Position numbers and translations under genes: made by a program
Origin: an uncultured Flavobacteriales bacterium
Lineage (GTDB): Bacteria; Bacteroidota; Bacteroidia; Flavobacteriales; BACL11
Assembly: GCA_905478555.1 (NCBI GenBank)
Contig: CAJQIZ010000017.1
Span: 1 to 64,000 of the forward strand
Length of the DNA: 64,000 nucleotides
Reading direction: 5' to 3'
The notes under the pieces: generated by a model
Database searches by the model: none
What the model was told of the DNA's origin: nothing
What the model saw: only the letters and a program-made list of their open reading frames with translations
Part shown: piece by piece, positions 45,272 through 51,150 of the stretch
Position numbering within the stretch: the stretch's first letter is position 1
Layout of the letters: each line of letters begins with the position of its first letter

Positions 45272-47749
45272 TTGAATAAAAAAATATTTATACTCGTTTC
45301 ATTCATTATCTTATTAACAGGATTTTTCAACAATTCGTATGCTACTATTTTCATATTTTCTTCTGACACATTACCAGACAACAACATAATAGAGCACAAT
45401 ATTGAACGAGAATGTAAAGATTCTATTAGACAAGACATAAAAAATGAAACCATTTACCTCTATGGTACTGCAAAAATTAAATATGGAAATATAATTATAA
45501 CAGCAAATCAGATAATTATTGATTGGAAAGAAAATACAATATTAGCCAAAGGAGGGGAAGATAGCAGTGGAAAAAAAATAGGAAATCCCATTTTTTCTGA
45601 GGGAAAAGAAAGTTTTAAAGCTACCGAAATACTTTATAATTTAAAAAGTAAAAAATGTATTATAAAGAAAATAATAACCCAAGAGGGAGAAGGATACATA
45701 CATGGACTAAAAGTGAAGAAGTTAGAAAATGATGTTCTGTATTTAAAAAGAGGAGAATACACTACCTGTGATGCAGAAAAACCACATTATTCAATAAGAG
45801 CAAATAAAATAAAATTAGTACCTAAAAAACAAATTATTACAGGTCCTGCCTACTTTACATTTTTCAATATACCTACCCCATTATTTTTACCTTTTGTTTA
45901 TTTTCCAAATACAGATAAGCAAAGTTCGGGAGTTATTATTCCATCTTATGGAGAGAGTGCTAATTTAGGTTTTTTCTTAAAAGAAGCAGGATATTATTTT
46001 TCTTTAAATGACTATATGGATCTCAGTATAAAAGGAGATATATACACAAAAGGAAGTTGGAAAGCAAAAACTAATTTACGGTATAAAAAAAGATATAAAT
46101 ATAATGGAAACCTAAACCTAAGCTTAGGTAATATAGTTAATAGTGAGGTTGGTTTTCCAGACTATAGAGTACAAAGAGATTTCTTTGTTAGGTGGAGTCA
46201 CAGACAAGATCAAAAAGCAAATCCTAATCTAAGTTTTTCTGCAAATGTAAATGCTGGTAGCAGTAGCTATCATAAAAACAATACTACTAACAACACTACA
46301 GATTATTTAACTAACACCTTTACATCCAGCATAAATTTAAGTAAAAGTTGGGACGGAAAACCATTTAACTTTTCTTCAAGCTTAGGACACAATCAGAACA
46401 CTAAAACACATAAAGTAAACTTAACCTTACCAGATATTAATTTTAGTGTAAATAAAATATATCCTTTTAAAAGTATCGGAAATAAGGGAACAAAAAATTG
46501 GTATGATAATATCGGTATTCGATATAATATGAATACCAAAAATCAGCTATCAACCACTGACTCTTTACTTTTTCATAGGAGTAATTTAAGCACTTTCCAG
46601 TCAGGAATGAGACATAAGATTCCTATTAGTTCTTCCTTCAAATTATTAAAATATTTTACTGCAACACAGAGTTTAAATATTTCTGAAAGATGGTATCTAA
46701 ATCAGATAGAGAAACAATGGAATGGTAGTGAGATAATAACAGATACAATAAATAAATTTACTAGAGGAGGAGAATACAATTTTTCTAGTTCAGTGAATAC
46801 TAAAATATATGGAATATCTCAGTTTAAAAAAGGTAAAATAGCAGCATTCCGACATGTACTAACCCCTAATTTATCTTTCACCTATAACCCGAGTTTTGAA
46901 GATGAAAAATATGGATTTTATAAATCTGTAAATTCAGATAGCTTAGGAAATACTACTATTTATTCTGTAATGGAAAATGGTATTTATGGCAGTCCCAGAA
47001 GAAATGAATCTGGAAATATATCTTTAGGTTTTGGTAATATATTTGGTTTGAAAATACGAAATAACAAAGACACCATTGAAAAGATTACAAAAATAAACCT
47101 TATAGAGAGTTTAAACATAAACTCCTCTTACAACATATTTGCTGACTCCTTAAATTTCAGCACTATAAAATTAAGTTTAAGAACAAAACTATTCAATAAA
47201 ATAAACATCAGTTACAGTAGTGTTTTTGACCCTTATATTACAACTGAAAAAGGTAGAATAAATAAATTTGAACTTTTTGAAAATAAAAAGTTAGCAAGAT
47301 TTAAGAATTCTAATCTCTCTGCAAGCTTCAGTATAAACGATAAATCATTCTCGAAAAAGAAAACCAAAACAGAAGAAAACAAAGAGGTAACAAGAGGGTT
47401 TTATCAGATACCTTGGAACCTTAATCTGAACTATTCACAATCTACAAATCTAGGAAACACTATTATTTCAGAAACTATAAAGACTAAAACACTCGGTTTT
47501 TCAGGAAATATAAAAGTAACCAAAAAATGGAAAATAGGGTTTCACTCTGGATATGATTTTACAGATAAAGATTTTTCATACACTTCCTTAGATTTATACC
47601 GAGATTTACATTGTTGGGAAATGTTATTCCATTGGATACCAACCGGATATCAAAGAAGTTACACCCTTACAGTTAGAGTAAAAGCTGATATGTTAAAAGA
47701 TTTGAAATTAGAAAGAAAGAAAGATTGGATAGCTCCAAGTTTCAATTAA
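45272..47749 (+). CDS. lptD: LptD/OstA-like LPS assembly outer membrane protein
   Basis: LptA-like YGTAKIKYGNIIITANQIIIDWKENTILAKG; GPAYFTFFNIPTPLFLPFVYFPN; long beta-barrel. Confidence 0.85.
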   Translation: MNKKIFILVSFIILLTGFFNNSYATIFIFSSDTLPDNNIIEHNIERECKDSIRQDIKNETIYLYGTAKIKYGNIIITANQIIIDWKENTILAKGGEDSSGKKIGNPIFSEGKESFKATEILYNLKSKKCIIKKIITQEGEGYIHGLKVKKLENDVLYLKRGEYTTCDAEKPHYSIRANKIKLVPKKQIITGPAYFTFFNIPTPLFLPFVYFPNTDKQSSGVIIPSYGESANLGFFLKEAGYYFSLNDYMDLSIKGDIYTKGSWKAKTNLRYKKRYKYNGNLNLSLGNIVNSEVGFPDYRVQRDFFVRWSHRQDQKANPNLSFSANVNAGSSSYHKNNTTNNTTDYLTNTFTSSINLSKSWDGKPFNFSSSLGHNQNTKTHKVNLTLPDINFSVNKIYPFKSIGNKGTKNWYDNIGIRYNMNTKNQLSTTDSLLFHRSNLSTFQSGMRHKIPISSSFKLLKYFTATQSLNISERWYLNQIEKQWNGSEIITDTINKFTRGGEYNFSSSVNTKIYGISQFKKGKIAAFRHVLTPNLSFTYNPSFEDEKYGFYKSVNSDSLGNTTIYSVMENGIYGSPRRNESGNISLGFGNIFGLKIRNNKDTIEKITKINLIESLNINSSYNIFADSLNFSTIKLSLRTKLFNKINISYSSVFDPYITTEKGRINKFELFENKKLARFKNSNLSASFSINDKSFSKKKTKTEENKEVTRGFYQIPWNLNLNYSQSTNLGNTIISETIKTKTLGFSGNIKVTKKWKIGFHSGYDFTDKDFSYTSLDLYRDLHCWEMLFHWIPTGYQRSYTLTVRVKADMLKDLKLERKKDWIAPSFN

Positions 47750-48309
47750 GAATTTATCCAGTTTTCAATTATCTTTTTACCGTAATTGGTAAGAATAGAT
47801 TCTGGATGAAACTGTACACCCTTAACATCATATTTATTATGCCGGAACGACATAATTAAACCCTCCTTATTTTCAGAAGTAACGCTTAAGGAATCAGGAA
47901 AACTAATTTTATCAACTACCCAAGAATGATAATGTGCTACTAAGAATTTATTTGGAATTTCTTGAAACAAACTATCTTCTATCTTTATTATGTTTTCAGA
48001 AGTAACCCCATGTTTTACCTTATTAAGGTTTAATAAACTCCCTCCACAAAACTCTGCAATAGCCTGATGACCTAAACAAATTCCTAAAATAGATTTAGAT
48101 GAAATATACTTATCAAGAAACTTAAATATTATTGGATAATCCTTAGGTAAGGAAGGTCCTGGAGAAAGAATAATTTTATCAAAGTCATCTATTTCTAATG
48201 AAGAAATTTCATCTAATCTAACTACAACAGAAGTATCTACAAACTCACTCACATAATGATGTAAATTATAAGTAAACGAATCAAAGTTGTCAATAATTAG
48301 GACTTTCAA
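47746..48309 (-). CDS. Anthranilate/aminodeoxychorismate synthase component II (glutamine amidotransferase)
   Basis: LIIDNFDSFTYNLHHYV; LSPGPSLPKD; LGICLGHQAIAE; GVQFHPES. Confidence 0.9.
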   Translation of the reverse strand: MKVLIIDNFDSFTYNLHHYVSEFVDTSVVVRLDEISSLEIDDFDKIILSPGPSLPKDYPIIFKFLDKYISSKSILGICLGHQAIAEFCGGSLLNLNKVKHGVTSENIIKIEDSLFQEIPNKFLVAHYHSWVVDKISFPDSLSVTSENKEGLIMSFRHNKYDVKGVQFHPESILTNYGKKIIENWINS

Positions 48310-48326
48310 TTAAATATATTTTCTAA

Positions 48327-48512
48327 TTACTCAGAAAGGTTTTCTAATACCATATCAATTCCATCTTCAAAAGAAATATCATGTTTCCAACCTAAATCAT
48401 TAGAAGACTTAACTATAATATTTCTGAACCCTTCTGATTTTAACAAATTTAAAATAACAGAACCTACCATACTATTGTGCGCAGCAATATATATTTTACT
48501 GTTTTTATCCAT
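48327..48512 (-). pseudogene. GDP-L-fucose synthase remnant with in-frame internal deletion (61 aa)
   Basis: N-terminus KIYIAAHNSMVGSVILNLLKSEGFRNIIV resembles Fcl N-terminus; C-terminus NDLGWKHDISFEDGIDMVLENLSE resembles Fcl C-terminus; the central several hundred residues are absent. Confidence 0.75.
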
Positions 48513-49281
48513 TTTTTTTTGGTCTTCTGAAAAATTGACTGATTTTTGAAAGAGGTTTTATAAATCGTAAAAGAAATGGAGGATTAATACCATTAATTTT
48601 CCATGACACATAATCCTCATGGTTCGCTCTCCATCTATTTCTAATTGAAGTATTACTAATACCACCATTTCTCATATTTACAAGAACTCTAGGAATATAT
48701 TTAACCGAAATAGTGTTTTTAAACAACAATCTCACCATCATTTCATAATCTGCAGCACTCTTTAATCTAATAGAATACAAACCGAATTTGTTATATATTT
48801 CTTTTTTAATAAAAAATGTTGGGTGAGGTAACATCCACCCTCTTCGAATCTTACATCTCTTAAATGGTTTTGACTCCCAATACCTTAAAATTATATCTGT
48901 ATTATCTTTTGCTACATAAATTAAATCTCCATAAACAGAATCTAGATCATCATCTTCAAAAACTTTTACTACATCTGAAATCACATCAAAACAAGCATAA
49001 AAATCATCTGAATTTAATATCCCAATAACATCACCTGTAGCAGCTCTAATACCTTTATTCATTGCATCATAAATACCATCATCTTTTTCTGAAATAAAAT
49101 ATGATATCTTATCCCCATAAGACCTTACTATTTCAATAGTATTGTCTTTAGAATCCCCATCAATAATAACATGCTCAATATTATCATAATCTTGAGAAAG
49201 AACACTCTCAATGGTATCTCTAATAGTTTTTTCACTATTAAAAGTAACTGTAATTATTGATATTTTTATTTTGTTAGTCAA
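48505..49281 (-). CDS. Glycosyltransferase family 2
   Basis: ISIITVTFNSEKTIRDTIESVLSQDYDNIEHVIIDGDSKDNT; GILNSDDFY. Confidence 0.92.
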   Translation of the reverse strand: MTNKIKISIITVTFNSEKTIRDTIESVLSQDYDNIEHVIIDGDSKDNTIEIVRSYGDKISYFISEKDDGIYDAMNKGIRAATGDVIGILNSDDFYACFDVISDVVKVFEDDDLDSVYGDLIYVAKDNTDIILRYWESKPFKRCKIRRGWMLPHPTFFIKKEIYNKFGLYSIRLKSAADYEMMVRLLFKNTISVKYIPRVLVNMRNGGISNTSIRNRWRANHEDYVSWKINGINPPFLLRFIKPLSKISQFFRRPKKNG

Positions 49282-49285
49282 CTTT

Positions 49286-49426
49286 CTAAATTATAAAAAC
49301 ATGGCAATTACCATTAGTTCTGTCGTATTTTACTAAACTACAATTGTTATTATCTATCCAATTTTGAACTTCTTTTGAAGAATATCTATATTCAAATAGA
49401 GTGCTATAAAAAAATGTTTTTTCCAT
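49286..49426 (-). CDS. 46-aa small ORF translationally coupled (TAATG) to the carbamoyltransferase gene
   Basis: MEKTFFYSTLFEYRYSSKEVQNWIDNNNCSLVKYDRTNGNCHVFII*; start overlaps the upstream stop codon and stop lies 4 bp before the next gene. Confidence 0.55.
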   Translation of the reverse strand: MEKTFFYSTLFEYRYSSKEVQNWIDNNNCSLVKYDRTNGNCHVFII

Positions 49427-51150
49427 TACCTTTCAATAATTATATTTTCCATTACTAACATATCCATTTTAGTTCTAAGAAAACAGTTCAACGCCTCTTC
49501 TGGATTGTTTACAATGGGTTCATTTTCGTTAAAAGAAGTGTTTAATAAAATAGGGATTCCTGTTTTTTTATGAAATTCTGATATTAACCTATGGTACCTA
49601 GGAGAAATCTCTTTATTTACAGACTGTAATCTACCAGTTCCATCAACATGAGTTACCGCAGGTATAATAGAATATTTCTCCTTTTTTATATCAATCACTT
49701 TCTCCATAAAAGGTACTTCTTCATTTTGAATAAAATACTCTTTCACATATTCTTCTAAAATGGAGGGAGAAAATGGCCTAAAACTCTCTCTCCTTTTTAT
49801 CTTTTCATTTAATAAATCTTTCGCATCTTTCCTACTAGGATCAACCAAAATAGATCTATTACCTAACGCTCTAGGACCAAATTCTGCTCTTCCTTGAAAC
49901 CAACCAATCACCCCACCTTCTTTCAGTCTTGTCGAAACTCTATCAAATAAAATATCATCCTCTACTTTTTCATATTTAACTCTCTCTTTTTCCAAGCAAG
50001 AAATTATCTCTTTTTCAGTAACTTTTCTTCCAAAATATGCAGTTTTTATTTCTGGCATTCTTTTCTTACCTAAAATATGATTATACAAATACAATGCTGA
50101 CCCAATAGATGTACCCGCATCATGTCCTGCCGAAGGAATATACATGTTCTTAAAAGGAGTATTGGCTAATATTTTTCCATTTGCAACGGAGTTTTGAGCC
50201 ACCCCACCAGTTATACAAATAGTATCTAATCCTGTTTTTTCATGTAATTTTGTTAGCATATGAAAAATTAAATCTTCAGTTAACTTTTGTACGGAAGTTG
50301 CTAAATCAATATGAAACTGTTCTAAGGTATCCCCTTTTTTTCTTGATTTCCAGAACAACTCCTCCCATGATTTAGTATAGAGAGAGTCAACAGTTGGCTC
50401 CCCATTCTCCCAATCCATAGCGACCCCCTCTTTAAAATGTTTAAAATATTTTTCATTTAACACAAAAAAACCATCTGCTGTTTTTTCAATAATTGATGAA
50501 AGTTCTTTCAGATATTTAGCTTCACCATAAGGGGCTAACCCCATCACCTTATATTCATCACCATAATTAGGAAAGCCCAAAAACTGAGTAACAGTAGTAT
50601 AAAAAACTCCCAAAGAATGAGGATAGTTCACACTATCCAATACTTCAATTTTATTATCTGAACCAATAGCAGTCATAGTTGATGTAAAATCACCAAATCC
50701 GTCAATAGATAAAATAGCAGATTTCTTAAATTTTGATGCAAAAAAGGAAGAAGCAATATGACTTCTATGGTGCTCAATATTATATATTTTTGCTCTTATA
50801 TCAGATTCAGAAACATTAAACATTGTAGCTAACTGACCTTTTACAGAACTTACTTTTTTAGAATTCATTAACCTATCAAAAATATATTTTAATCCTAACC
50901 TATTTTTCAGAGTATGTAGAACTTTTTTAGAAAAATTCGCATTCGGATTTCTCGAAATTGTCACATAATCTAAATCATCAATTGAAATACCTGCATCTTC
51001 TAAACAAAACTTTATTGCATGAGAAGGAAATCCTGCCCAATGTTTTATTCTTCTAAATCTTTCTTCTTCATTAGCACAAATAACCCTTCCATCTTTTAGT
51101 AAGCAAGCAGAAGAGTCACCATGAAAGGCGTTTATTCCTAAAATATACAT
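49426..51150 (-). CDS. Carbamoyltransferase (NodU/CmcH family)
   Basis: MYILGINAFHGDSSACLLKDGRVICANEEERFRRIKHWAGFP; FQGRAEFGPRALGNRSIL. Confidence 0.93.
   Translation of the reverse strand: MYILGINAFHGDSSACLLKDGRVICANEEERFRRIKHWAGFPSHAIKFCLEDAGISIDDLDYVTISRNPNANFSKKVLHTLKNRLGLKYIFDRLMNSKKVSSVKGQLATMFNVSESDIRAKIYNIEHHRSHIASSFFASKFKKSAILSIDGFGDFTSTMTAIGSDNKIEVLDSVNYPHSLGVFYTTVTQFLGFPNYGDEYKVMGLAPYGEAKYLKELSSIIEKTADGFFVLNEKYFKHFKEGVAMDWENGEPTVDSLYTKSWEELFWKSRKKGDTLEQFHIDLATSVQKLTEDLIFHMLTKLHEKTGLDTICITGGVAQNSVANGKILANTPFKNMYIPSAGHDAGTSIGSALYLYNHILGKKRMPEIKTAYFGRKVTEKEIISCLEKERVKYEKVEDDILFDRVSTRLKEGGVIGWFQGRAEFGPRALGNRSILVDPSRKDAKDLLNEKIKRRESFRPFSPSILEEYVKEYFIQNEEVPFMEKVIDIKKEKYSIIPAVTHVDGTGRLQSVNKEISPRYHRLISEFHKKTGIPILLNTSFNENEPIVNNPEEALNCFLRTKMDMLVMENIIIER

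Follow-up and report, generated by a model that had tools for sequence, protein, structure and literature searches.

A 46-codon ORF at positions 49286–49426 (minus strand) of the window, i.e. the whole 64,000-nucleotide stretch analysed here, is very probably an ordinary scar of gene loss, left where an in-frame deletion removed the middle of a class I SAM-dependent methyltransferase (MT) gene and joined its two ends. On sequence comparison, chance does not account for this ORF: each of its ends aligns, in register, with an intact gene for a 243–245-aa protein that occupies the same operon slot in 13 related genomes of the family.

The ORF translates to exactly MEKTFFYSTLFEYRYSSKEVQNWIDNNNCSLVKYDRTNGNCHVFII (46 residues) followed by a stop codon. 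Its ATG overlaps the stop codon of the upstream carbamoyltransferase gene (49426–51150, minus strand; Carbam_trans_N and Carbam_trans_C domains) by 1 nt, the shared A of TAATG. On the 3' side, the 4 nt AAAG separate its TAG from the TTG start, at 49281, of a glycosyltransferase family 2 (GT2) gene (48505–49281, minus strand). Translation and coordinates thus agree with a sequence-only reading of this DNA, which had described the ORF as coupled by TAATG to the carbamoyltransferase gene and as ending just before the GT2 start. That reading also recognized no family in the 46 residues, and Pfam, NCBIfam, and PDB searches with them likewise returned no usable match. A weak match to TusA (E 0.21) was dismissed, and a tblastn search of plasmids yielded chance-level matches only.

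The origin of the ORF became apparent when 52 genomes of the family were searched with the 46 residues, which gave two matches inside one open frame of ~246 codons: a C-terminal match covering ORF residues ~12–46 and a weaker N-terminal match covering residues 1–34, located ~620 bp upstream. Both matches are present in five congeners and in G028, and weakly in G039 and G050. Two-piece tblastn and DNA alignment confirmed both ends against the intact MT, in the same genomes and in the same frame. The intact gene, which encodes a 243–245-aa class I SAM-dependent MT, fills the slot in five congeneric genomes and in eight more from the family (G006, G007, G011, G012, G013, G014, G015, G025, G028, G031, G032, G039, and G050), the order being carbamoyltransferase–MT–GT2 in all 13. 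Its product matches Methyltransf_11 (E 3.6e-19) over residues 43–135, a part that is absent from the 46-aa ORF. The ORF lacks residues ~20–213, including any MT domain with a SAM-binding motif, and has no Pfam match above the cut-off. No other close copy of the MT was found in the genome, where the best match shares 29% identity. In relatives without a short form, either a full MT occupies the slot or the carbamoyltransferase gene is followed directly by the GT2 gene; in neither G044 nor G045 was any vestige of the MT found, and the GTG start of GT2 lies directly 3' of the carbamoyltransferase stop. Weak matches with internal stops in six family genomes (G017, G043, G051, G003, G023, and G047) were judged from their low scores to be due to chance, and the three of these loci that were inspected lie opposite or across long ORFs.

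The operon holding the scar is a sugar-polymer operon. Its genes belong to a conserved run of polymerase-like, GNAT-like, GT4, deacetylase-like, GT4, carbamoyltransferase, MT, GT2, in some genomes GDP-L-fucose-synthase-like, and class I glutamine amidotransferase genes (the last at 47746–48309, minus strand), and the run ends at a convergent LptD-like gene. Apart from the names obtained by family searches, the gene names in this run are our own reading. At 45272–45453, the LptD-like (plus strand) and amidase-like (minus strand) genes, which are divergent, overlap by ~180 nt when each is taken as its longest frame, and their true starts probably lie further in. In G013 (L023, ~6980), the carbamoyltransferase gene contains one in-frame TAA near codon 475, reflecting either an error in sequencing or recent pseudogene formation.

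The remnant retains the first ~19 and the last ~27–30 residues of the MT. In the DNA alignment, it tracks the N-terminal part of its relatives up to TCTTCAAAAGAAG and the C-terminal part thereafter. The N-terminal piece comprises 19 codons (49370–49426, minus strand), and the C-terminal piece comprises 27 codons plus a premature TAG at 49286–49288 (49286–49369, minus strand). From the lengths of the intact gene (244 codons) and of the remnant (46 codons plus 4 ancestral codons past the premature stop), 194 codons, or 582 nt, are missing; the raw value of 588 nt given by the two-piece scan for this genome (G000) includes codon-sized alignment gaps, and both values are in frame. At the joint (49369–49381, minus strand), the N- and C-terminal stretches resemble each other: TCTTCAAAAGAAG has an imperfectly matching counterpart, TCTAAAAAGGATG, in the C-terminal region of the relatives. 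This resemblance, seen in relatives, suggests that the deletion occurred between short imperfect direct repeats.

Both pieces have also been altered by point mutations. Among the five N-terminal columns that are invariant in the 13 intact MTs, three have changed in the remnant (Y6F, D7Y, and P10L), while the invariant columns of the C-terminal part are kept, one of them lying beyond the new stop. The TAG stands at the ancestral fourth-last codon, which is AAG in G012 and G013, so that the last four ancestral codons are cut off. Homology to the MT runs through the TAG to 49283, and the ancestral codons and stop past it (AAA GTT GAC TAA; 49274–49285, minus strand) overlap the GT2 start. Over 46 codons, the remnant differs from G012 by 12 synonymous and 7 nonsynonymous changes (small counts), of which 7 and 3, respectively, fall in the C-terminal part and 5 and 4 in the N-terminal part. 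The N-terminal parts of G012, G013, and G014 show no nonsynonymous differences among themselves. The simplest reading of these comparisons is that the deletion took place late on this branch and that decay is at an early stage. The synonymous excess would fit a recent deletion, and a retained small product or residual constraint would also be compatible with it.

We propose the following course of events. In the ancestor, carbamoyltransferase, MT, GT2, fucose synthase, and amidotransferase genes would have followed one another in this order, each stop overlapping or abutting the next start. A single deletion of ~582 nt (194 codons) would then have joined MT codon ~19 to codon ~214. It took out the SAM-binding core entirely but, since its length is divisible by three, left a frame of 46 codons. 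The product of the remnant cannot be a methyltransferase and is most likely functionless. Since its start overlaps the carbamoyltransferase stop, the remnant is probably still translated, and it may passively deliver ribosomes to GT2, whose start lies 4 nt further on. With both ends and the links to both neighbouring genes preserved, the scar is unusually neat.

A second remnant of the same kind lies on the other side of GT2. In the 61-aa ORF at 48327–48512 (minus strand), the start and the end of a GDP-L-fucose-synthase-like gene are joined at ~48393–48407, 735 nt having been lost in frame; the first 40 residues of the ORF match NF047922 (E 1e-5). The intact gene occupies the same slot in G011, G012, G013, G015, and G031, and the best other matches to it in the genome share 28% identity. 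In this scar, GHNGMVGS has become AHNSMVGS, and a premature TAA cuts off the ancestral C-terminus, the stop now being located 17 nt from the TTG start of the amidotransferase gene.

In a two-piece tblastn scan of 463 proteins against regions retrieved from this genome and from 21 relatives, both scars described above and two more were identified, namely a remnant of the MT in G002 (L027, 7699–7848; 50 codons, 585 nt lost, with other breakpoints) and one of the fucose synthase in G014 (L024, 8827–8916; 30 codons from the ATG, 846 nt lost). For the latter, the raw value of 825 nt includes codon-sized alignment gaps and 846 nt is derived from the lengths; the loss is in frame either way. The G002 remnant has no family match. 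Further candidates from the scan, with one piece at E 2–10 and 24–35% identity, were not accepted. The four remnants are separate events, since their breakpoints differ, and all four two-ended remnants are in frame. Deletions blind to frame would give this outcome by chance with a probability of ~0.012. Repeats inside these genes at comparable distances, however, are in phase in 53% of cases at 7 bp and in 60–67% at 8 bp (counts pooled across sequences of relatives and therefore not independent), which raises the chance of four in-frame remnants out of four to roughly 0.06–0.2. Against this repeat-phase null the pattern is not significant; hence, selection for frame is not demonstrated, and the argument that four in-frame remnants out of four prove such selection for the sake of coupling was rejected.

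The in-frame pattern bears on the idea that selection keeps the remnant in frame, termination–reinitiation through it feeding ribosomes to GT2, and that genes of this operon are lost by in-frame deletions which preserve the coupling. All four remnants being in frame, the survival of both links of the present one, and the direct abutment of GT2 on the carbamoyltransferase gene in G044 and G045 are in line with this idea. Published work makes such a relay plausible, and the spacing of the remnant is compatible with it: genes must overlap or lie very close together to be coupled, and the final 15 nt of the upstream gene are enough (PMC10666635), and Shine-Dalgarno motifs are hardly used in Bacteroidetes (PMC6728339). 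However, in addition to the chance expected from repeat phase, both scars in the window have gained premature stops, and the fucose-synthase scar stops 17 nt short of the following start; over such a gap, coupling is strongly reduced in published work. We therefore consider selection for a relay unlikely. Similarly doubtful is its general form, according to which small-genome marine Bacteroidota that hardly use Shine-Dalgarno motifs would lose genes of coupled operons mainly by in-frame internal deletions, and mini-ORFs, this one included, would be kept for a while as ribosome relays. Among titles and abstracts searched, no claim of coupling-preserving internal deletions was found, and nothing on remnants together with repeats.

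A functional small protein, whether it acts as a carbamoyltransferase partner or the fused ends have taken on a new role, is highly improbable. The frame is open, its spacing in the operon is normal, and the changes in its C-terminal part are mostly synonymous; however, short forms occur in only 2 of the 52 family genomes, with different breakpoints, invariant N-terminal residues are lost and the C-terminus is cut off, and no family or PDB match was obtained. No relative of the ORF ends was detected after the carbamoyltransferase gene in loci of Pedobacter, Chitinophagaceae, and other Bacteroidota, and among these loci and the 52 family genomes a homologous small ORF does not recur beside carbamoyltransferase genes. 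Of the two possibilities raised by the sequence-only reading, the carbamoyltransferase partner is accordingly disfavoured, the other relatives having a full MT or nothing between the carbamoyltransferase and GT2 genes, whereas the decayed gene fragment is borne out, although the alignment reveals an internal deletion and not the frameshift that had been envisaged. An assembly artefact, in which an intact gene was mis-joined across a short repeat, is just as improbable: the genome is a draft of 44 contigs and a short repeat appears to span the joint, but mis-joining an intact gene would neither change residues that never vary among the intact copies nor introduce a premature stop, and the same argument holds for the fucose-synthase remnant.

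These results remove a false small-protein candidate and indicate that a mini-ORF exactly filling an operon gap can be a scar. Annotation of small ORFs should include a check whether relatives carry an intact gene whose two ends are fused in such an ORF. The relay, if true, would explain in-frame stumps after gene loss in coupled operons.

Gene remnants generated by internal deletion between short direct repeats are known in bacterial gene loss, and the present one resembles them in that both ends are kept, the middle is lost, a short imperfect repeat probably lies at the joint, and what remains shows signs of point decay. It differs in that the loss is a multiple of three, so that the frame stays cleanly open and connected to its neighbours on both sides. 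Compared with class I SAM-dependent MTs (PF08241 Methyltransf_11/PF13649 Methyltransf_25), the 46 aa correspond to the N- and C-terminal ends and share the operon slot, whereas the MT domain (residues ~41–138 of the intact protein) is absent. With regard to termination–reinitiation coupling (PMC6728339, PMC10666635), the 1-nt upstream overlap and the 4-nt downstream gap of the ORF are within the reported range, whereas the putative coupling element here is a gene remnant.
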